Below are positions 39,643 through 52,116 of a stretch of 64,000 nucleotides of DNA, piece after piece. Under the pieces are notes generated by a model, which saw only the letters and a list, made by a program, of their open reading frames with translations, was not told the origin of the DNA and ran no database searches. Where the stretch lies: contig KN832554.1 in NCBI GenBank assembly GCA_000827205.1, forward strand, positions 799,263 to 863,262, given 5' to 3'. Source of the stretch: Plicaturopsis crispa FD-325 SS-3 (taxonomy: Eukaryota > Basidiomycota > Agaricomycetes > Amylocorticiales > Amylocorticiaceae). Position 1 is the stretch's first letter; each line of letters starts with the position of its first letter. Position numbers and translations under genes: made by a program.

Positions 39643-40538
39643 CTATGACGACCCAGCGCGCGCCGGTTCTTCCTCTCCACCACCGGTCAGCACTATGATA
39701 GTAAGATCGTAAATAAATATAACGGTAAGACGGAGAAAGGAAAGAACGCACAGAATGCACCCAAAACAAGTACTATGTATATCCAATATTTCTGTACAAA
39801 CGACTTCTCGGGCACAGGCTGCACCGGGGCGCCTTCTGGGCTGAGGGGCGGGGGAGTTCTCAGCTCGGGCCTGTGGTAGAATTAGGATAAAAATGATCAA
39901 TGATATGACGCGGAGAACACGGACAAGGGTGGTAAGTGCGGCGTGCGGAGAAGCACGGTCGACGCGTTTGCAGCGCCAGAGAATATAGGATGAGTGGATA
40001 TATCGAATGCAGTTCCTGAGGACTTTGACTTGCGTTTAGGGCGTGGGCAAGCACCGTCGTGCGGGACGTTGGCTAAAAAGTAATCGAGTGCGAAGGGCTC
40101 GCCATTCGCTGCAAGGTGGAGGACAACAGTCTCGGCCGTGCTCAGTGGTAGGTGACACTGGAGAGGAAAAATTATGATGAACAATCTTTGAGAAGCTGCG
40201 AGTGTTTAGAACATACGCACGGCTTTGGCAGACGAGATGTCCCAGTGGGCCTCGTGTTTGTCTCCTGGACGCTCGATTGCGACCTGGTACAGCACATCTG
40301 CAACCGTAGGACTGTGTAAGTCAAGTTCGGGAAGAGACACGCCCCCTGCGTCAGTCTGCTGCTCTAGAAGTGGGCTGGGCGCGACGCGTATGACACCGCG
40401 CGGAGCAAAGGGCGCTGGCTGAGGTGCGGCGGGGTCCAGGTATCTGTGATACAAGTTGAATTTCGTCGGCAAATCCGCATCTGCTAGTACGAAGATGGGC
40501 GCCGCAAGGAAAGACAGGAGAACGGAGACTGGTAGCAT
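39643..40538 (-). CDS. EMC10: ER membrane protein complex subunit 10 (EMC10)
   Basis: Exons 40538-40221, 40157-39925, 39870-39752 and 39692-39643 give 239 residues. A signal peptide (MLPVSVLLSFLAAPIFVLA) leads a luminal domain, followed by GAPVQPVPEKSFVQKYWIYI running into one C-terminal membrane helix (YIVLVLGAFLLTG) and a short acidic cytosolic tail EEEPARAGSS. This fits fungal EMC10, part of the insertase that places membrane proteins in the ER. The last two exons only make sense spliced: the helix and tail come from separate frames. The start at 40538 gives the best signal peptide; an in-frame ATG at 40580 would add 14 residues. Confidence 0.85.
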
Positions 40539-40719
40539 CGTGGTCAGCACAAACAGCGCCTTGGTGTACAGACTTGACACGGAACAAGATGATCGAACCC
40601 AATTGGGTTTCCGCTGGGCGGTGATTGGCGGAGCTGGGAAGCCGAGGAGGCCGTCACCGACTCGGTCTCAAGAATAAATGAAAGATAATTGGTTACAGTA
40701 GATAGAGATACAGAAGTGT

Positions 40720-41580
40720 TCATGAGCGAGACACAAGATGATCGGAAAGGTCTCCATTGGTTTTGTCCTTAATAACGGCGTACTGTCTCTCGGGCTTTCG
40801 TTTTCCGCAGGCAACGCTGTCTGTCACCCATTCCGGACGGACAACATGAGGTCGACTCCTCGATTTTGTGTTGAGGATCTTGTGCGTCTTCGATCCGTTG
40901 AGCTGCTGCGACGTGACGATATGTGTTGCGCGTGCTGCAGTATGCCTATAGAAACGCTACAATGAGTCTTCGCAAAATAAATCTAGGACAAGAGGACCAC
41001 CTACATGATTTGACCACCGGCTAGAGTCACGATCCGCTTCATTTCGATGTCGGTGGTATCACTCAAATAGCCGTTGATATACAATTTGACATCACGCAAG
41101 GGTCCATCGGTTTGCATGCTTGGTGAGGCTTTCTGTTGTTCTAATTTCTGACTGCGATCTTCGAGATAAATACGCCGAGCGTGACTGCCATCGCCGCGCT
41201 GGTGCCCAGTAGCGACGGATTGGACATGATCTGTGAAGCAGATTAGTATATAATATTCGTGTATGAGGTTTGACTTGCCTGTGCGGCTGTAGATATCAGA
41301 ATGGGTAATAGGGTTGGACTCATCAGACAGTGTACTGAGAAGGTGCTTCGTTAGAGCAGCGGATGACGAGGCACTAAACGAGGGGATATTAATTGCCGGT
41401 CACTGGTATATATTTGCCATAGCGAGAAACTCACGGTGCAGATCTCTCCTCGTCGGTTGTGTGCTTGGTGCTGACTGCAGTCACGGTGGCGTAAGGGTTG
41501 AACTTGCGCATATCGCGTTTTGCTGCACGCTCTTCCTTGGTGGCCCGCCCCGGTTTCGTTACTGTAACCCATTTATCCAT
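40720..41580 (-). CDS. Small BRCT-domain protein
   Basis: Four exons (41580-41435, 41334-41279, 41230-41005, 40945-40720) give 217 residues. The N-terminal half starts MDKWVTVTKPGRATKEERAA and is basic and polar. The C-terminal half is one BRCT domain: LRDVKLYINGYLSDTTDIEMKR, VTLAGGQIM, then after an intron ARATHIVTSQQLNGSKTHK, ending with the diagnostic Trp in VVRPEWVTDSVACGKRKPE. BRCT domains bind phosphopeptides or DNA ends in DNA repair. It resembles the BRCT of Rev1, but no Y-family polymerase follows. Intron 2 uses a GC donor (gcaagt). The gene is invisible as single open frames. Its start lies 197 bp from the left end of the CACTA element. Confidence 0.75.
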
Positions 41581-41777
41581 GAGCAATAGTGCATATGTAC
41601 AATCGTGAAGCGTAATTTTGTGAAGATATCTCGTGGTGGCGGTCGCAGGTCAAGCTGTCAAGTTGGTGCCACCGACGCGTTGAGCACTTGAACATGAACG
41701 CGTACGTAAGCAAGATCGTAAGACCTTGTCCTGGCAGAAATAGCCCCTGATTGAACAAAAACTCTACTGCTGACTTA
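41581..41777. promoter_or_regulatory. Left part of a divergent promoter (BRCT gene side), split by the CACTA element
   Basis: 197 bp between the BRCT start and the transposon. Together with 50030-50045 on the far side it makes about 213 bp, the whole original spacer between the BRCT and FPGS start codons. Confidence 0.6.
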
Positions 41778-41816
41778 CACTGCTATACCGGAAAACCCTG
41801 GAATCCAGCTGGAAGG
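41778..41816 (+). repeat. Left terminal inverted repeat of the CACTA element
   Basis: Begins CACTGCTATACCGG and includes CTGGAATCCAGCTGGAA, itself palindromic. It matches the right end with about three to four differences. Confidence 0.9.
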
Positions 41817-42035
41817 TGTGATTGATGGCAGCAGATACTTAGATCGCTGGTTTCCAGTAAAAGTCGTCGACGGAATCCAGCAAAATGGGAGACGGATGGA
41901 CGAGACAGTTTGAACAGCTGAATCCCAGCATCGCCTTCAGATCTCAGGATCTGGCATTAGATAAGCCGCGCCGCGGGAGGTCTTAGAGAAATAATATTGA
42001 AGTCGAGTGCGCTCGAGCTCGCTGACTCCGAAGTC

Positions 42036-45000
42036 ATGGCAGACCTCCTCCCTCCACCGACAATACCAGTAACCGAGACAGAGGAAACCTTTCTAGTTAA
42101 CCCTCAATGTGTGTTGATACTGTAACAAGCCCTTGATAATTTATTTAAGCCTAATAATCGCCCTGCCAGTTTTCTTCACGCGAATCAGCGAACACAACGG
42201 CGCACGCAGCTGGCGATGTATGCTCTGTCCTGGGGCAAAATATGAATCTCGGTATTATGCAGCGAGACACGAAGATGGTGTATCCCATGCCCTTCGAGTG
42301 CGCGAACAAGACCAACCGGACCCCCTATCCAGTCCCCTACACACGCGTGAAAACAGGAGTCATACCCCCGAACCACCTTCCCCTCTCGAAACCTACCGCT
42401 TTGATACACAGGCATCCTCTCCGACAGGAGAAACCGAGGAGTTTGATCTTCTGTCCCATGAAATAATGTCGGTTCATGGGCCTGCGCTCCCGGATGACAA
42501 TGAAGACCAGATCTACGATGACTGGGCCGGCGAGGTCAGCAGGAACAGGCCCGAATATGCTGGATTCGATGAGCAAAACGAGCTGGAGGTCAACGAGATG
42601 GAAGGTTTTACCTTCGACGAGCAGCCGCAGTATCATTACGACTCGGATGAACAGACCGAGCACGATAATGCGCAGGATAACATCTTGTTGCAAGACGAGC
42701 ACGAGGATCTGACAGAAGAACAGCGACGTGAGTTGTTGGAAATTCTGTCCAACGCAAGCGATTCTCACCGTAAGAAAGGACTTGCGCCTGGCGACGAGAT
42801 AGAGGTCCAGGACCCTGAGGCTTGGTGGCCGTGGATCAACCGAGAGGTCCGTGCTGCGATATTTCAATTAGTAGATTTCAATACTGACACTTCGTAGGAG
42901 TGCTTACTAGATGTAATGTCTGCATTCCCTCGGTCCGTCTTCTCTGAAAAGGAGCTGCGCGCTACGCAGTGGTACACCTCCAAGCATGGCGTCACGGGCT
43001 TACCGAGTGTGCGACAAGTAAAGAACCATCGACCGCATATACTGAATGTGGCTGGGGTGACTACGTCCATTAGAACTGGGAAGTTGGGAAACCTATATGC
43101 GTGGAACAGCTTTCCCGAGATGTTCCGTCATGTCAGTGGTCGCAAAATCCTCATGCCCTGCATACTGAAGCTCTTACTGGCAGGCATTTGCGAATCCTTT
43201 GGTCAGGCGCAATTTATGGACGTATTCTGAAGATACAGGTGCTCGCATCGAGGAGGCGCGCCAGGCGGAACGTTGGAGGACCGAAGTTGACGGGAACTTA
43301 GCAGGTCCGATGGCGCGAGGTGACGACGGCCGTGATTACTTTGTCGAAGAGCCATGTATGGCAAACATCGATCAATGGGGCACACCAGGACCTGTAATGC
43401 CAATGCGATGGTTCATACGTGATGGCGCGTACTGGACACAAGCTCACCATCTTCGCATATCCGATGATCGCACTAGTTTCCTCATCGACGCGAGACCGGA
43501 AGGTTGTGTTGAGCTCCCCCTGACGGCGTTTTTCTTGACCGTGGTTGATCTCGCCATTCCCGAATGCCAGGCCCTTTATGGAATACCTAATCCAAATGCT
43601 ATCGCTGGTGAGGCCATGACTTCAAGTTGAAATGAACTGTCAACTTACCAGAATTACTTTCAACAGGAATCTTGCGCAATAACAACAGCGACGACTCCGA
43701 AACCAGATCGGACACAGACAGACCGTCTGAACCAACTATCGAGCCGTGGAATCTTCCCGCCGTAAACCCCTGGCGCACCATAGCCAACGGGCGACGTGTT
43801 CTGTCATTACCGCTATGGCTCTATTGTGACGACACGTCCGGTAATACCTCAAAAAAATGGAATAAGCACAACTCCATCCTCTTCACGTTGGCCGGCTTAC
43901 CTCGGAAATACACTCAGATGATCTACAACATCAATTTCATCGCAACCTCCAACCTGGCACCACCGCTCGAGATGATGGAAGCTATTGCCGATGTTCTTGA
44001 GTGAGCTCGAACTCAACTTTCACAGCTATATGGAACTTACACGTCACCGCAATGTCCAGGGAGGCGCGGCAAGACGGGATTGAAGTTTGGGATTGCCGTT
44101 ATGGCGACATGGTGCTGCTCATTCCATGGGTGCTCGCATTTCAAGGCGATAATCCGATGGCAAGTGAATTCGCATCGCACGTCGGAATGACTGGAAAGTG
44201 TTTCTGTCGGGTGTGTCATGTACGCGGCGCAGACGAGAAAAACCGTGCACCTGGAGTTGCTGGAGATATCGAGCGCCTAAAAGATTTCATAACAGTGAGT
44301 GTTTGCCATATTCACGTAGAAACTAATACGAACGGTCATTAAAGGAAGCAAAACTCCGCAGCAAAGGCGAAACAGTGGCTGATCTCGATGCGCAATTGAA
44401 ACGGGTGCTTGATGGAGCGCCAAGTGCCGTCGACGGAATGGCCACCGACACAGGATCAAAAGATAAATACTTTGGGCATTTCGTCTCGCAATTTCAAGCA
44501 GCTGCCAACAAATACAAGGATCAGCACAAAAATATCGCGCCAGCTGGGGGGATGTCGAAAGCAGAGGAAGTTCGTAATGTGCTGCGCAAGGTTCGGGATA
44601 CAATGCCTGCAAATATTTACAATCCGGTCTTAAGGATTGCTGGTGCGCATCAGCATTAGTTCGAGTCTACATGCCCGATATCCGACTCACGCTACTTACA
44701 GATTTCGATCCTAACCAAGATTCCCCGGTCGAGATATTGCATGTTGTCTTGCTCGGTATAGTAAAATACTGGTGGAGAGATGCTGTCTCGCGTCAAACAT
44801 CAGAAGGGAAGGAAGAATTGAAGGCTCGCCTGTCAAGTGTCGACATCGCAGGTCTCAACATATCGCAGCTACGCGGCCATACACTGGTGCAATACGCTGG
44901 ATCCCTCGTTGGCCGTGACTTCCGCGTCATCCTGCAGGTCGCCCCGGCCGTACTGCACGGTCTGATACCGCAATCGCATTACGAGGGATGGCTGGCATTG

Positions 45001-46552
45001 TGCCGCCTCGCGCCACTGGTTTTCCAGCCCGTTATCGAAGATCTGGATATATACAAGGTACGTGTATCAATAAGAGTATTAAGCGTCTACAAAATCTCAC
45101 CGAACGCCGAACGTAGACAAAACTTGAAGCTGCAATCACCGACTTTCTGGCAGCAACTGCACTTTGGACAACGCAATGGTTCAACAAGCCTAAATTTCAC
45201 CTCCTCGTTCATCTCTTCTGGCATATTCGACGATTTGGGCCAGCGATGATCTATGCTACGGAAAGCTTCGAGTCATATAACCTGGTCATTCGTCTGCGTA
45301 GTGTCCATTCACCAAAACACGCACCAAGCATTGACATTGCGCACTCGTTCAGCCATCTACATGCTGTTCAGCACCTTGTCAGCGGGGGGTGGGTACTGAA
45401 TGACGAGAATGGATTACCGTTGCCTCGTCCTCGGCAAGCAGGGCAGCAAGTTTTACAACTCATTCAAGACGACGAATTTGTCCAGATGATGTCAATGGAA
45501 GGGCTACGAGAAGACACGCGAGTTGGTGAGTGTTTGAGTCCTGCTGTGGCAGAGAACTGTCTCACCGATAATTACTATCCAGGCCATTATGTGCCGCTCC
45601 AAAGTGACGCACTCGTCGATTGGAAAAACACGGCAGCCGGAAATTCGGGCGTCCCTTGCTTGTTGGCTTCCGATACCGTCGCGCTTTGCTGCAGGAGTAT
45701 TGTGCTTGTCAACGGAGACCGCGCAGCTGTCGGAAAATTCGTTATTTACCAAGCGGGTGGCGAGCCTAGCGCAATCTCGGTGGGGCGCGTCGATGAAATC
45801 CTAGTGGATCCAACGAAACGCAGCATCGTCGGTGTCTTGGTAGCACCGTACGAAGTTGGTACAACACCGATCTTGCCATATCGATTCCCGGCCTGCCGTG
45901 TTGCTCAAGACAGCGTTCCGAAGCTCCTGGCATTCAAGGTGAGAATTAGATATATCTGGGCCTCAAGATACGAGATGCTCATGAGTGTATCAAATAGGAT
46001 GTGCTTGCTGCGGTCAACACAATACATAATTGTGCAGCAAATAATTGCCATGTTGCACAGACTCGCATCGTCGTACAAGAACGTCAGAGGACAGAACGTA
46101 CCGAGAACCAAGTCGAGCACTCGAAAAATCCTGATGATCTACTTTTGAATCTGGCTCAGTTACGGAGCGCGGCGTATCTCGAGGTATTCCGATTGGACAC
46201 GACATATCCTGGGCTGCTCAGAGATGAGCTTATCGAGGAGGCCGTCAGACACAGGCATGCCTTGGAAAGGCAGGCTCAGCTAGCGAAGGAAAACAAGGAA
46301 AAAGAGAAATTGGAGAAGGCCGCACGAAAGGCGGCAAAGAAAGATAAAGGGAAAAGACGCGCGGAAGAATCGAGTGGCACGGGCACTGGGCCATCGAAAC
46401 GCTCTCGAGGATACCTTGCTACCACAGAGCACCCCCCGAGTCCAACTGTGCGCACTGGCAGCATCTTCGTTGCAGACCCACCTCCAAACCCCAGCGTCGC
46501 CTCAACTTCGCACCAAATCGCGGACATGATGGACACATCTCCCATTGAATAG
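42036..46552 (+). CDS. CACTA transposase (tnp2-like)
   Basis: A start at 42036 (MADLLPPPTIPV) leads through about eleven exons to a stop at 46552. Regions: an N-terminal zinc finger (CMLCPGAKYESRYYAARHEDGVSH), an acidic linker, YTSKHGVTGLPS, then the catalytic part: LSLPLWLYCDDTSGNTSKKWNKHNS, FIATSNLAPPLEMM, IPWVLAFQGDNPMASEFASH, CFCRVCHVRG, SPVEILHVVLLGIVKYWWRD and FGPAMIYATESFESYN. The acidic pairs fit the DDE catalytic set of CACTA transposases, though I cannot prove which ones act. A C-terminal part (DVLAAVNTIHNCAANNC) leads to a Lys/Glu/Ala-rich basic tail with KKDKGKRR, probably a nuclear signal. The junctions I worked through all keep frame, so it looks functional. Confidence 0.85.
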
Positions 46553-46784
46553 GACGACGTACCGAGACTTCCATCGACACCGACTTTGACGACCCACAGT
46601 GCTTGACTTGAGACTGGGGGCGGCGCAAAGAATACAAGGCTTTCAGTCGCTCGAAGGGCTCGTGGTGCAAGAGGAAAGCAAAAGGTCGTTCTTCGGTTCA
46701 ACGCATGTATTTACGTACAGTCGCACGCATGTCTTCCATACCCATGTCAATCCGATTATGAGCGGTCTTCCCTCTCTTTTCCCT

Positions 46785-47953
46785 CTACGATGTTCCCTTT
46801 GCATTCTCTTTATCGTCGCTTATGGTGTAGCACTCCTGCCATGGCTGTACATTGTCGTCTTCGAAGGCTAGCTGGTTGTAGCCCATACCGAGCTCTGATG
46901 AGGCGTCGAGGTCGATACCGCTGGAGCGTTCGGACCCGTTTCCAGGTGAATATGCCGATGTCAATTGGGGCTCCTCGACGAGTTTAATTGGATGTTCCAA
47001 GTCGTCCCTCCAAGCGGCGATCTGTTCCTTGAGCTCTCCAACCTGGTGCGACACCCATGTCCATCTCTCAGCCAGTGGGGTACGCACATCATCCAACACC
47101 TTTTCCTCTACGGCACGAATTCGTGCATCAAGCTGATTTTGAAATGACTTGCTAGACTGCTCCAGTTTGTCTATACGGCTGGCCAATATAGTGTACTTCT
47201 CGAGGAAATCGGAGCACAGCCCAACGTTTTGTAGCGGTTCTTGAGCATGGACATGGTCTTCATGTTTCAGTCGAGGTTTCATGGATCGAGTAAGGTCTCG
47301 CGGAGACGGCGGGTGGCTATCGATGACTCCCATCTTGCGTTCTCGTTTCATCGGACGCAACGTAGAATTGGTATCCGATAATTCGGCAACACGCTCGCGC
47401 TTTACGGGACGCGCTGGAATGGTCTCCGACAACGAACTCGTTTGACCAGACTTCGAGTTCGCTGATTGCAGAATGGGCCTGCGGCGTTCGCGCGTTTCGA
47501 CGCTGTGTCTGCAGACACAACCCATGCAGTGAACTCCGGCTAAATCACGTAGCAGGTACATATTAGCTTACTGTCCATTACTTGTTGCTTTTGCTTACCG
47601 CACGTCGATTCCTCGATGCCAGCTCCATCACTTTTGGACAGTGTGACCTCCTCGTCTTGCTCTTCCACTGCAGATCCGTAAATTAGGTCAGTTATCTTTT
47701 TTGGACGGCATGAGCACCATACTTACACCCGGTTTGTGTACTTTGCGTGTAGAGATCTTCGACGCCACATCCGTACAAGCCTGCAATTGCGACGTCGTCC
47801 GAAACTTGGCTATTCAGGTAACCGTTGGAATCATTGACCAAGCTGTAATCTTGCTGTGAGTCCCCTATTATCTATATTTTCGTGTACTCACAGGTCTGTC
47901 CTGGTCTCGCCATTAGCTCTTGTCGAACGAGTCCTGTCCCGGCGAGACGTCAT
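46785..47953 (-). CDS. CACTA accessory protein 1, coiled coil
   Basis: Starts MTSRRDRTRSTRANGE at 47953, continues through short exons near 47,860-47,740 and 47,670-47,600, and ends in a long exon to 46785. The long exon encodes a basic Ser/Arg/Lys-rich region (with PVKRERV and PMKRERK, nuclear-signal-like), a helical coiled coil (ILASRIDKLEQSSKSFQNQLD, then RIRAVEEKVLDD) and an acidic Gln/Asn/Asp-rich end. I recognise no family. By position it could be the partner that binds subterminal repeats (the role of plant TnpA), but this is inference from the element's design. It is transcribed against the transposase, towards its 3' end. Confidence 0.65.
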
Positions 47954-48052
47954 GGTCAAAGGTACAACAGCTTCCGACTTGCGAGCCGAAAAAGAGAGGT
48001 GAAATTTGACGTGGCTCGTTTTCCCAACCGTCGTGCTCACTGAGTTCCCCAG
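47954..48052. promoter_or_regulatory. Short divergent promoter inside the CACTA element
   Basis: Only 99 bp separate the start codons of the two accessory genes, so they probably share one bidirectional promoter. No motif recognised. Confidence 0.5.
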
Positions 48053-49709
48053 ATGTCTTTCCTGCGTGGCCGTACCACCACCCCAGGCCCTGTTCGAAGT
48101 AGGTCTACACTGCCAGGACATTCCTCCACACCCTATGCTGTGCCCTCGCGCCCGCAGAGCCGGCACGAATACCCACAGTCACAAGAAAACTACGCGGAGA
48201 ATGGTTCGGGGCCAAACTCGCCCCTCACGGGGTCCCCCGTGTTTAACCGCGATAATCAGCTCTACCGCACCTACAGCCTGCCGTCAGCCCAGTCGAGCTC
48301 GTCCTCTTTACACAGTGGGCCGCAAGTATCGCCTCCCGTCGCTTTTACGGGCCATTCGGCACCTCAAAATATCGACTACCTCATCAACCAATATCCATCG
48401 AGCATTGACCGCCGTGCAGTATATCACTTTGTAGACGTATGTATCTGGTGTGTCGCGAGAAGTAATAGGCATCTGGCTAACTCATTGTTCCTTACAGGCA
48501 ACGTCGGACGAGAAGCTGATTATTTTGTATATGGAGACTTTGAACCAAAGAGACGAGACAGCCAAGATTGCGAAGCAGGTAAATGCTGTTCAGGGCAAGT
48601 TGGATCGCCTAGAACAGTTTGCGGCTCCAGCGTGGAAGCTCACGAAAGTGCAAGAGGTAGGTCTGCATCGCCTCAAGTTGAACATGTACTAGTAGCTAAC
48701 TCCGTTGTAGGACCTTATCAAGTCACTTATCCGGCATTATCTCATCAAGGGAATCACGACGTACAAAACCACTACGAAACTTGTCCAGGTATGATGTTTC
48801 TCGGGGTATGCACAGCACGATGTATTGACCATATCTCGTTTCAAGAATTACATCAAGGACAACGCAAATACCTTGCGTCTCGGGCTGTACAAGACAGACC
48901 CAACGGTGAGAAAGACCATAAACGATTACGTGCAAACTCAGCAGAACAACCTCAAAAGCGCTTTCCGAAAGACGGTCAGTCTCGAATGCGCCTGTGTTGA
49001 CATGCTCTGACTAACGCGACCTTAGCTCTCTGGCTCCGTCGAAGACGGAAAGGAGATCCCCTTGAAAATTTTTGCCCGCCGTATGGTTGATTACTACTGG
49101 CTCCCGAAGGTCCCAGCCAACGTACCCGATAGCACTATGGCTTCATTAGCCATGCTGGTAGGGCAATCAATTCTTTTCACGATATGAAACTGACAAGTAT
49201 ATGCGGGTAGCGTGACATTGCCAGACCGTTTGTCGAGGCTAAAGCTAGAGCTGAGGCAGCCAAAAGGGCGAACACGGCGGCCGGTACTTCCTCATCCTCG
49301 AATGCCGGCACTGTCACCATCGACGGTAACAGGTTCTGGGATTTTGTCGAGAAGACGCTCGCCAACAACCACAAGAAGTTCGGAACCAACCACGACTCTG
49401 AGGAGTGGAAAGCGTAGGTCTTCTGGCTTTGCAATATATTGTCCAATTCGTGTGTGCTGACAGTGCCTATTGTGTAGATGGGAGGCCGACATGATTGCTC
49501 AAGATATGGCTCGTTTCAGTCAACGATCTGCCGAGCAATCCGCCCTAACGCGCGAAGAGATCGACACAGCGATGGGGTTCAGAGAAGCCGAGGATACAGA
49601 CAACGAAATCGAAGAGCCTGACCATGCGGCTGAGACTGCAGAAACCGCTGACGGCGAGATCGATGTGCGTCTTATGGACCTCGCTCAAACGATTCCCTTG
49701 TATGTGTAG
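48053..49709 (+). CDS. CACTA accessory protein 2, unknown domain
   Basis: About seven exons, start MSFLRGRTTTPGPV and stop at 49709. The first exon encodes a disordered Ser/Pro/Tyr-rich region. Next comes a helical ETLNQRDETAKIAKQVNAVQ segment, then a folded part: DLIKSLIRHYLIKGITTYK, NTLRLGLYKTDPTVRKTIND, IPLKIFARRMVDYYWLP, an Ala/Lys-rich helix, FWDFVEKTLANNHKKFG, and an acidic tail ending IPLYV. Joins such as AAA GC to A TGG keep frame. I know no family for it. The mix of disordered head, helical core and acidic tail would suit a DNA-binding or regulatory protein. Being inside the transposon ends, it probably serves mobility, but a captured host gene cannot be excluded. Confidence 0.65.
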
Positions 49710-49990
49710 TCGTGTCGATGTTAACCTATCATAATCTATGTCATGCATTGCACTGCCGTATACATTCAGTTCTCCGCGCGAGTTCTTTTGCTACGGATAC
49801 CACCACACATAAATATTTAGAACCGCTGGCGCCGTGTGCTGGCGCTGTGCTGTGCCCAAAATGGTCGAAATCTTTGTCACTGAGTTACATCAAGCCGCGC
49901 TCTGGAATCCAGCCGTTCCAACAGCGTCGTACAGCTGGTCCCCAAAAAGCTGGTTTCCACTGATCTATCCACCTAAAACTCGCTCTTTGC

Positions 49991-50029
49991 CTTTCCAGCT
50001 GGATTCCAGCGTTTCTCGGTATAGCAGTG
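49991..50029 (-). repeat. Right terminal inverted repeat of the CACTA element
   Basis: Inverse of the left end; ends CGGTATAGCAGTG, then TA. The element ends 16 bp before the first FPGS ATG. Confidence 0.9.
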
Positions 50030-50045
50030 TAGTCCACTTGAAGTA

Positions 50046-52116
50046 TTGATGCGCTTTCCTTCCCTATCTTCTGCTTTCCCTCACCTTGTAAATTATCGGT
50101 TTAATATATTCCGCTCAAGAGCCATGTCGACACGATCTTACAAGGACGCTGTCGAGCATCTGAACTCGCTTCAGTCCAATGCCGCGACTCTGGAGGCCTT
50201 GCGAGCATCAGGCGGGCGCTCGAGCGATCTCGCGCACCCGGAAATGATAGAATACCTCGGAAGGATAGGATATACCGTACGTGTGCGATACTTTTCTCAA
50301 TCGTTGGTGTACTTCATGTACCGTGTGCAGCCTGAAGATCTAAATAAACTCAATGTTCTGCATGTAACTGGCACGAAAGGCAAAGGCTCGACCAGCGCTT
50401 TCGTAGATAGCATACTGCGCCATGTGAAGCCGCAATGGACAACTGGTACGAAGTCTTGCTTACGCATACTCAAACCTAATACCCACGACTTCCGGGATGT
50501 CAGGTCTCTATACCTCACCGCACTTAGTAGCTGTGCGAGAACGGATACGAATAAACGGGGCGCCCATATCCGAGGAAGTCTTCACTCGGTTCTTCTTCGA
50601 GGTCTGGGACAGACTGGAGCATAACAACGTGAGTAGTATAGCCGCAAAGGCGCTCATATGAACTTGACACCAGAAAACACCGCAGAAAATACTTGCGGAG
50701 AAACCAAGACCAGGATATTTCCGTTACATGACTCTCCTCGCATTTCACACTTTCCTGTCCCTCAAGGTGAGGTCGTAGATGGTCATAGAAAATTGGCGCC
50801 GCTAAATCTGCTCAGGTTAACGCTACAGTTTTGGAAGTGGGTGTTGGGGGCAGGTACGACAGTACCAACATCGTGCCAAAGCCAATCGTCACAGGTATAA
50901 CCGCGCTCGGCCTTGACCACACAATGGTCCTCGGAAAGACTTTGAAGGAGATTGCGTGGCAGAAGGGAGGCATCTATAAGGCGAGTGAGCGCAATTGAGA
51001 TGTGCAACACAAACTGAGCGAATACGTAGGCCGGCGTCCCGGCGTTGACAGTCAATCAGCCCGAGGAAGGCATGGAGGTCCTCAAAAAGCAAGCCGAGGA
51101 CAGCAAGGTGCGGCGAACAAATCAGCTTGAAAAATGTTTATTTAAATGTCCTAGGCATCCGAGTTCCTTGTCGTCCCATGGACTCCCGAAATTTCTGCAA
51201 TCAAGCTAGGTAAATCTCTGATAGGTGGTGTGCTCGTATATATACTTACCGGTCCAAATAGGCTTGGCCGGTGTGCATCAAGTTCAAAACGCGCACCTTG
51301 CGGTGTTTCTCGTAAACAAATTTCTCCAAATTCGAGAACCCGATGGACACTGGCCAATTCTCAGTGAAGATGTAGTCGCAGGCCTTGAAAACACGAAATG
51401 GCCAGGCCGGTGCCAGACCGTGCGCGACCCGAAGCACCCCGACACTACTTGGTTTATAGATGGCGCCCATACGGTAGAAAGCCTCGAATGCTGCGTTCAA
51501 TGGTTTGTTAGTCCAGGCATTGGTTTGCCTGTGGATCCATCTTCGTCAGTGCTCTCTATTATCAAGCACACGGCGATTATGACCTTCCTGCTGATTTGAA
51601 TCCACAGAAAACGGGCCTTACGCGTTCTGATCTTCAACTGCACAAACGGCAGATCAGGCAATTCCTTCCTGGGCACTGTACAGGACAAGGTCGCCACACA
51701 GTTGAAGTTGCACGAGCGCGATGAGGACCCTGTCTCGTTCTTCGACCACGTCGTTTTCTGCTCAAACGTCACCTATGCAGATGGCGCCTTCAAGGGCGGT
51801 GTGTCTCGTGTTGGACTATCAGTGGTTGTTATTGTGACTAAACCATTCTACGACAGACATTGCGAACATGGGCATTCCCGACGCAGACCGCCTGCACCTG
51901 AAGACGCAGCACGAGCTTGCGACCGCGTGGGCATCGCTCCTACCATCTTTCCCGCCTGAGAACATACACGTCTTGCCGAGCATTGAGCACGCCGTCAACG
52001 TTGTACGCAGTTCCTCAAGCGGCGACAGAGAGAACATCGAAGTACTGGTTGCGGGAAGTCTGCATCTAGTTGGCGGAGTAATTGAGGTAGCAGGACTGTC
52101 AGCAGTCGCGCTCTGA
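50046..52116 (+). CDS. MET7: Folylpolyglutamate synthase
   Basis: FPGS adds glutamates to folates, trapping them in cytosol and mitochondria for one-carbon metabolism and methionine synthesis. Landmarks over about ten exons: YKDAVEHLNSLQSNA, the folate-loop entrance GRSSDLAHPEMIEYLGRIGY, the P-loop LHVTGTKGKGSTSAFVDS, VDVAVLEVGVGGRYDSTNIV, GLDHTMVLGKTLKEIAWQKGGI, the WFIDGAHTVESLE motif and a final HLVGGVIEVAGLSAV. Two starts are visible: ATG 50046 gives a 26-residue Arg/Phe/Ser-rich leader that looks mitochondrial, and ATG 50124 (MSTRSYKD) gives the cytosolic form, as in other eukaryotes. The CACTA element lies immediately upstream, so the leader or promoter is likely altered. Confidence 0.92.

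Follow-up and report, generated by a model that had tools for sequence, protein, structure and literature searches.

The fungal DNA transposons that come closest in anatomy to the element described here, ESTA (PMC12730594) and CNEST (PMC12810828), are known from papers dated 2025-2026. ESTA are EnSpm-like elements defined by TA duplications (PMC12730594), and CNEST of Cryptococcus neoformans, about 7.2 kb in length, has CACGG ends, 33-bp terminal inverted repeats (TIRs) and TA duplications, with a transposase of the CACTA-Mirage-Chapaev (CMC) type placed in a clade of its own (PMC12810828). The CMC/CMCT signature consists of D, D and E residues, the second D and the E being separated by a stretch that contains C(2)C and H(3-4)H (PMC12730594), and the Plavaka ends given in PMC12730594 are TGT..ACA or CATCA..TGATG. 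The present analysis concerns 64,000 nucleotides of Plicaturopsis crispa FD-325 SS-3 (contig KN832554.1, positions 799,263 to 863,262), referred to as the window, in which an 8252-bp cut-and-paste transposon stands directly before the gene for folylpolyglutamate synthase (FPGS), an enzyme of folate retention. The element resembles a TA-targeting member of the CMC clade, CNEST- and ESTA-like in anatomy. On balance we find it somewhat probable that such a transposon lies 17-19 bp before FPGS, that the two start codons of this gene serve leaky scanning native to it, and that a core promoter has been retained.

A complete transposon and its target site

The transposon, its ends and its relatives elsewhere in the genome are as follows; the genome searched was the window's own assembly alone (33.2 Mb, 49 contigs), whose intron-rich genes and 84 matches to the Plavaka domain would suit a mushroom-type basidiomycete.

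41776-41777: left TA of the presumed target duplication, from flank comparison
41778-50029, plus strand: whole transposon, 8252 bp, CACTG...CAGTG ends
41778-41814, plus strand: left TIR (arm 41776-41814 counting the TA)
41798 and 41847 (span 41798-41857): left subterminal CTGG-W-CCAG palindromes, from pattern search
49902, 49950 and 49999 (span 49902-50010): right subterminal CTGG-W-CCA(G) sites, from pattern search
49993-50029, minus strand: right TIR (arm 49993-50031 counting the TA)
50030-50031: right TA of the presumed target duplication, from flank comparison
Contig 9, 916566-917273: 708-bp copy (L033), same 12-bp ends, TA flanks
Contig 16, 469214-469921: 708-bp copy (L034), same 12-bp ends, TA flanks
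Contig 1, L063, 1443-9584: sister element, 8142 bp, CACGGCTATCCC ends (CACGG type), TA flanks

The inverted ends that an earlier note on this DNA had placed at 41778 and 50029 are borne out, in that the arms 41776-41814 and 49993-50031 are complementary at 92% of 39 nt, flanking TA counted. This edge-to-edge inverted match of 39 nt (at most three mismatches) compares with a maximum of 17 when the edges were shuffled 40 times. Exact matches to the 12-mer CACTGCTATACC number six across the genome and form three inverted pairs, one bounding the 8252-bp element and the others the two 708-bp copies on contigs 9 and 16; with one mismatch allowed there are 139 matches, against 189 for the reversed control, which is background level. 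Genome-wide, the first 523 bp of the transposon (searched as part of the 720-bp segment 41581-42300) gave no match beyond the element and its own right end. The two 708-bp copies look like non-autonomous followers of the large element because it is mainly the ends that they have in common with it, and their identity to each other at 697 of 708 positions would be a sign of fairly recent movement of the family. The copy on contig 16 lies about 0.3 kb upstream of a gene that appears GPI13/PIG-O-like; the first 48 residues encoded by that gene gave no Pfam match.

Subterminal sites were sought as CTGG-W(2-4)-CCA or TGG-W(2-4)-CCAG. Nine of the 14 overlapping matches in the window, corresponding to five distinct sites, fall within the two ends of the transposon, and each 708-bp copy has seven such matches at four sites, while the five in the sister element, one of them near an end, do not cluster.

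The flanks are TTA / TAG at the window transposon, ATA / TAG and CTA / TAC at the 708-bp copies and CTA / TAG at the sister element, so that TA is common to both flanks at four of the four insertions with both ends readable (eight loci were examined) and a shared trinucleotide is found at none of the four. A shared 3-bp target duplication was rejected on this count. The complete transposon and its placement beside FPGS are solid, and from the ends, the TA flanks and the copies we infer an insertion between FPGS and its divergent neighbour, a gene encoding a BRCT domain.

On contig 1, CACGGCTATACC sites (L035-L037) lack a TA flank. At the same three loci TCGCTGCACGGCTATACCGT recurs in the same orientation near 1232059, 1241585 and 1251166, about 9.5 kb apart, and the sequence that follows the three sites is closely similar; this is perhaps a large tandem repeat.

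The probable insertion between BRCT and FPGS

40720-41580, minus strand: short BRCT-domain gene, divergent neighbour, middle exons approximate
50049-52116, plus strand: FPGS gene, exon borders approximate
50049-50123, plus strand: FPGS leader from first start codon (AUG1) to second (AUG2), presequence-like as protein and CT-rich as DNA

The exon models of FPGS, BRCT and the third gene of the transposon were read by hand. Both neighbours had been named in the earlier note, and both identities hold: the minus-strand gene does start at 41580 and encodes a BRCT domain (PF00533, E 8.1e-9), and the FPGS assignment is confirmed by TIGR01499 (273.4 bits) and by PDB entry 1fgs (E 1.2e-25), Pfam Mur ligase matches to the first model having stayed below the cut-off (E 1.2e-4). 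The FPGS start was given there as 50046, 16 bp from the element, and this needs correction, as the first ATG is at 50049-50051 and the distance is 19 bp (50030-50048), two of them the duplicated TA. The divergent promoter described there as split, of 213 bp, is thus a gap of 214 bp before insertion (197 + 19 - 2 for the TA); a mobile element does part BRCT from FPGS, and 197 bp do remain with BRCT. A TA-targeting DNA transposon would accordingly have entered a TA within a divergent intergenic region of about 214 bp, at a point 17-19 bp before the first FPGS AUG, with 197 of the 214 bp or so (about 92%) of the old intergenic DNA staying on the BRCT side, 8 kb from FPGS. BRCT, having kept these 197 bp, is likely to be little affected. 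Directly downstream of BRCT is a minus-strand open reading frame (ORF) at 40206-40667, which appears similar to endoplasmic reticulum membrane complex subunit 10.

Genes and classification of the transposon

42036-46552, plus strand: transposase gene of some ten exons, without internal stop, product 1331 aa long in one model
46785-47953, minus strand: accessory gene 2, 333 aa, stop at 46785, a region judged by the reader to be coiled-coil-like
48053-49709, plus strand: accessory gene 3, 438 aa, seven exons

The transposase introns are GT..AG and the coding sequence runs without internal stop; two models disagree on the first exons and on the junctions after exons 4 and 6, and the exact protein is provisional. 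Paralogues of the transposase are matched at five other places in the genome, the two best with pieces 47-75% identical, and the transposase of the sister element is 53-75% identical to it by piece. Read by eye, without alignment to known members, the order of motif residues is D, D, CRVC, HLLVH, E, with CRVC and HLLVH between GDNP and ATESFE, which would fit the C(2)C / H(3-4)H signature. Database models gave little: a Pfam search of the spliced protein had no match, as had a piece of it, and a PDB search with its core returned cytochrome b562 only, at E 0.16 or worse.

Kinship with Plavaka is suggested, at a distance only. A family profile (thin, Neff 1.75) aligned to one Plavaka transposase of the same genome by hhalign with E 3.2e-7 and a probability of 93%, and by blastp the transposase matches a same-genome Plavaka protein with E 5e-5 at 24% identity. 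The Plavaka domain PF18759 has no match in the transposase protein, and none of its 84 genome matches, a number that includes two under the cut-off and many exon fragments of one gene, lies at the window transposon. Transposase_21 (PF02992) likewise has no match in the spliced transposase at E up to 10, and none of its 11 matches across the genome is at the transposon. Membership of PF18759 or of PF02992 was rejected on these grounds.

The earlier note had called the element CACTA, a name that holds in the wide sense only, for the terminal CAC..GTG with inverted repeats (CACTG..CAGTG), and that the TA duplication, with 3 bp at none of four sites, does not fit more narrowly. We consider it rather unlikely that the transposon truly belongs to the CACTA/EnSpm superfamily. 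Its CACTG ends would suit that superfamily, as would the C(2)C and H(3)H motifs as read by eye; CNIRT6 of Cryptococcus, put in CACTA by its authors, starts with CACTG (PMC12810828), and the CACTA-related SmTRC1 has two-base duplications in 7 of 14 copies according to PMC1636069, so that TA alone does not exclude the superfamily in its wide sense. Fungal EnSpm duplications, however, are of 3 bp (PMC12730594), as are those made by CNIRT6, against none of four here, and PF02992 matches elsewhere in this genome and not at the transposon.

Accessory genes 2 and 3 stand head to head with 99 bp (47954-48052) between their ATGs, so the transposon would have a short divergent promoter of its own at 47954-48052. 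Gene 2 has no copy elsewhere in the genome; its Pfam matches, of which the best is Gp-FAR-1 (E 4.9e-6, under that family's cut-off), were dismissed as coiled-coil-like noise. For gene 3 a single weak relative was recovered (48% identity over 46 aa, E 1.2e-4), and a host origin is disfavoured because this sole relative lies inside the sister element.

Two start codons and the FPGS leader

In dual-localised fungal proteins made by leaky scanning, as described in PMC7049704, a weak AUG1 with U at -3 is followed by a better in-frame AUG2, with a presequence-like stretch between. FPGS would share this layout: its AUG1 (50049) has T at -3, its AUG2 (50124), which is in frame with FPGS as the earlier note had held, has G at -3, and the stretch between is presequence-like in composition. 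The two starts look like native leaky-scanning dual targeting, in which a mitochondrial form would be made from AUG1 and a cytosolic form from AUG2. The genes of PMC7049704 are mainly aminoacyl-tRNA synthetases, for which the arrangement is backed by ribosome profiling; the word 'folylpolyglutamate' has no occurrence in the text of PMC7049704.

The 25-residue leader has four arginines and no acidic residue, and among shuffles of its DNA 4.0% give no stop, no D or E and at least three R or K. Its pyrimidine content is reached by 268 of 25,570 overlapping 75-nt windows, and its CT tracts (50054-50082) lie 42-70 bp before AUG2. This CT-rich DNA might contain a core promoter from which the short FPGS form is transcribed.

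Since the 17-19 bases before AUG1 are unaltered by the insertion, the mitochondrial/cytosolic balance need not have changed; it would shift if the bulk of transcription now began in this CT-rich stretch or further upstream than the ORF described next.

Predicted transcription of FPGS

49861-50049, plus strand: possible upstream ORF, predicted, 62 codons, good context with A at -3

Plus-strand ATGs before AUG1 are at 49702, 49718, 49738, 49743 and 49861, with none from there to 50049, and the stop of the upstream ORF, TGA at 50047-50049, overlaps AUG1 as TGATG. Starts upstream of 49861 are predicted to put this ORF on the FPGS mRNA, starts within 49864-50048 to give an mRNA on which AUG1 comes first, and later starts to give the short form only; the ATG-free stretch 49864-50048 could thereby serve the long form.

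The insertion took most of the upstream DNA, and FPGS transcripts therefore have to begin in the element, in the 19 bp or in the leader; the element and the leader had been foreseen in the earlier note, which had transcription forced to start inside the element or from 50046-50123, and the 19 bp at 50030-50048 are to be added to that zone. Elsewhere in the genome FPGS has one match only (a stretch of contig 11, 35% identity, E 8e-19) and no close second copy, and loss of the yeast FPGS gene MET7 harms nuclear and mitochondrial DNA (PMC7145683), so some working promoter probably remains. We favour its being a core promoter in the retained 94 bp, made up of the 19 bp and the CT-rich leader, which the ATG-free end of the transposon may or may not assist.

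Several observations weigh against the joint reading. A search of the flanks showed neither a TATA nor a CCAAT box. Nor do paired CT tracts mark gene starts specifically: the window has 13, and for 4 of these, FPGS among them, an ATG frame of at least 90 codons follows within 200 nt. The presequence was judged by composition with a criterion chosen after the sequence had been seen, and presequence and CT-rich core promoter compete as readings of the same 75 bp. On the side of the transposon, the TA count stands at four loci, an end search in the paralogous loci L064-L067 having given no convincing ends.

Among the alternatives, it is possible, and less probable than a retained core promoter, that the right end of the transposon is the main FPGS promoter, with starts at 49864-50048 and an AUG1-first mRNA. 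FPGS keeps just 19 bp of its old upstream sequence, no plus-strand ATG intervenes between 49861 and 50049, and a CATAAA box is found at 49808; yet the box is upstream of the 49861 ATG, and a start near it could still take in that ORF, while the ATG-free stretch doubles as the tail of the transcription unit of gene 3 and, as a single short stretch, weak as evidence for a promoter. Somewhat more doubtful is that the insertion weakened FPGS and left transcription inside the leader, yielding mainly the cytosolic form from AUG2. Like the leader CT tracts at 50054-50082, similar paired tracts at three further sites of the window precede an ATG frame, there by 47-68 bp, but nine of the 13 paired tracts lack such a frame, and a cell without mitochondrial FPGS would presumably pay a high price. 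We think it distinctly unlikely that the last 170 bp or so of the transposon form a portable, ATG-free promoter and 5' leader driving FPGS, such that the amounts of mitochondrial and cytosolic FPGS depend on whether transcripts start at the element end, in the CT-rich leader or in the zone before the 49861 ORF; if true, the division of a folate enzyme between compartments would have come under the control of a mobile element. Expression mainly by read-through from accessory gene 3, whose end at 49709 lies 340 bp upstream of AUG1 on the FPGS strand, is very improbable, as such an mRNA would carry all five of the ATGs listed above, from 49702 to 49861, before AUG1.

Any effect of the insertion on FPGS expression, in either direction, is conjecture, as are the shift in compartment balance and the new promoter that the earlier note had proposed. 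The locus is a natural test, in that an important one-carbon gene now stands 8 kb from about 92% of a short divergent region (197 bp out of 214): if FPGS expression is as before, its core promoter would have to lie within the first 94 bp, and changed FPGS would mean that the transposon altered folate supply or compartments.

Comparison with known elements

Overall, the transposon would belong to a recently described kind, and this is an ordinary kind of insertion, well placed. It adds a full-length, readable, TA-targeting transposon of apparent CMC type, the family having CACTG or CACGG ends, that carries two accessory genes and is accompanied by two small non-autonomous copies. It differs from Plavaka in its CACTG..CAGTG ends and in lacking a PF18759 match, the likeness being limited to a remote match with a single same-genome Plavaka protein. 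With ESTA, compared by description, it would share TA duplications and the CMC/Transib motif set; ESTA come from rust-group fungi and carry TET/JBP genes, whereas the three genes of the window element have no TET/JBP match in Pfam. The likeness to CNEST is one of anatomy. CNEST, at about 7.2 kb, has been shown to move, while the window element, at 8.25 kb and with two further genes, is known from its sequence, and the TIRs are of 33 bp in the one and 37 bp in the other. Both are large, multi-kilobase elements with TA duplications, ends of the CAC-G type (CACGG in CNEST and in the sister element, CACTG in the window element) and a transposase, apparently CMC-type in the window element as in CNEST, that classical database models miss.

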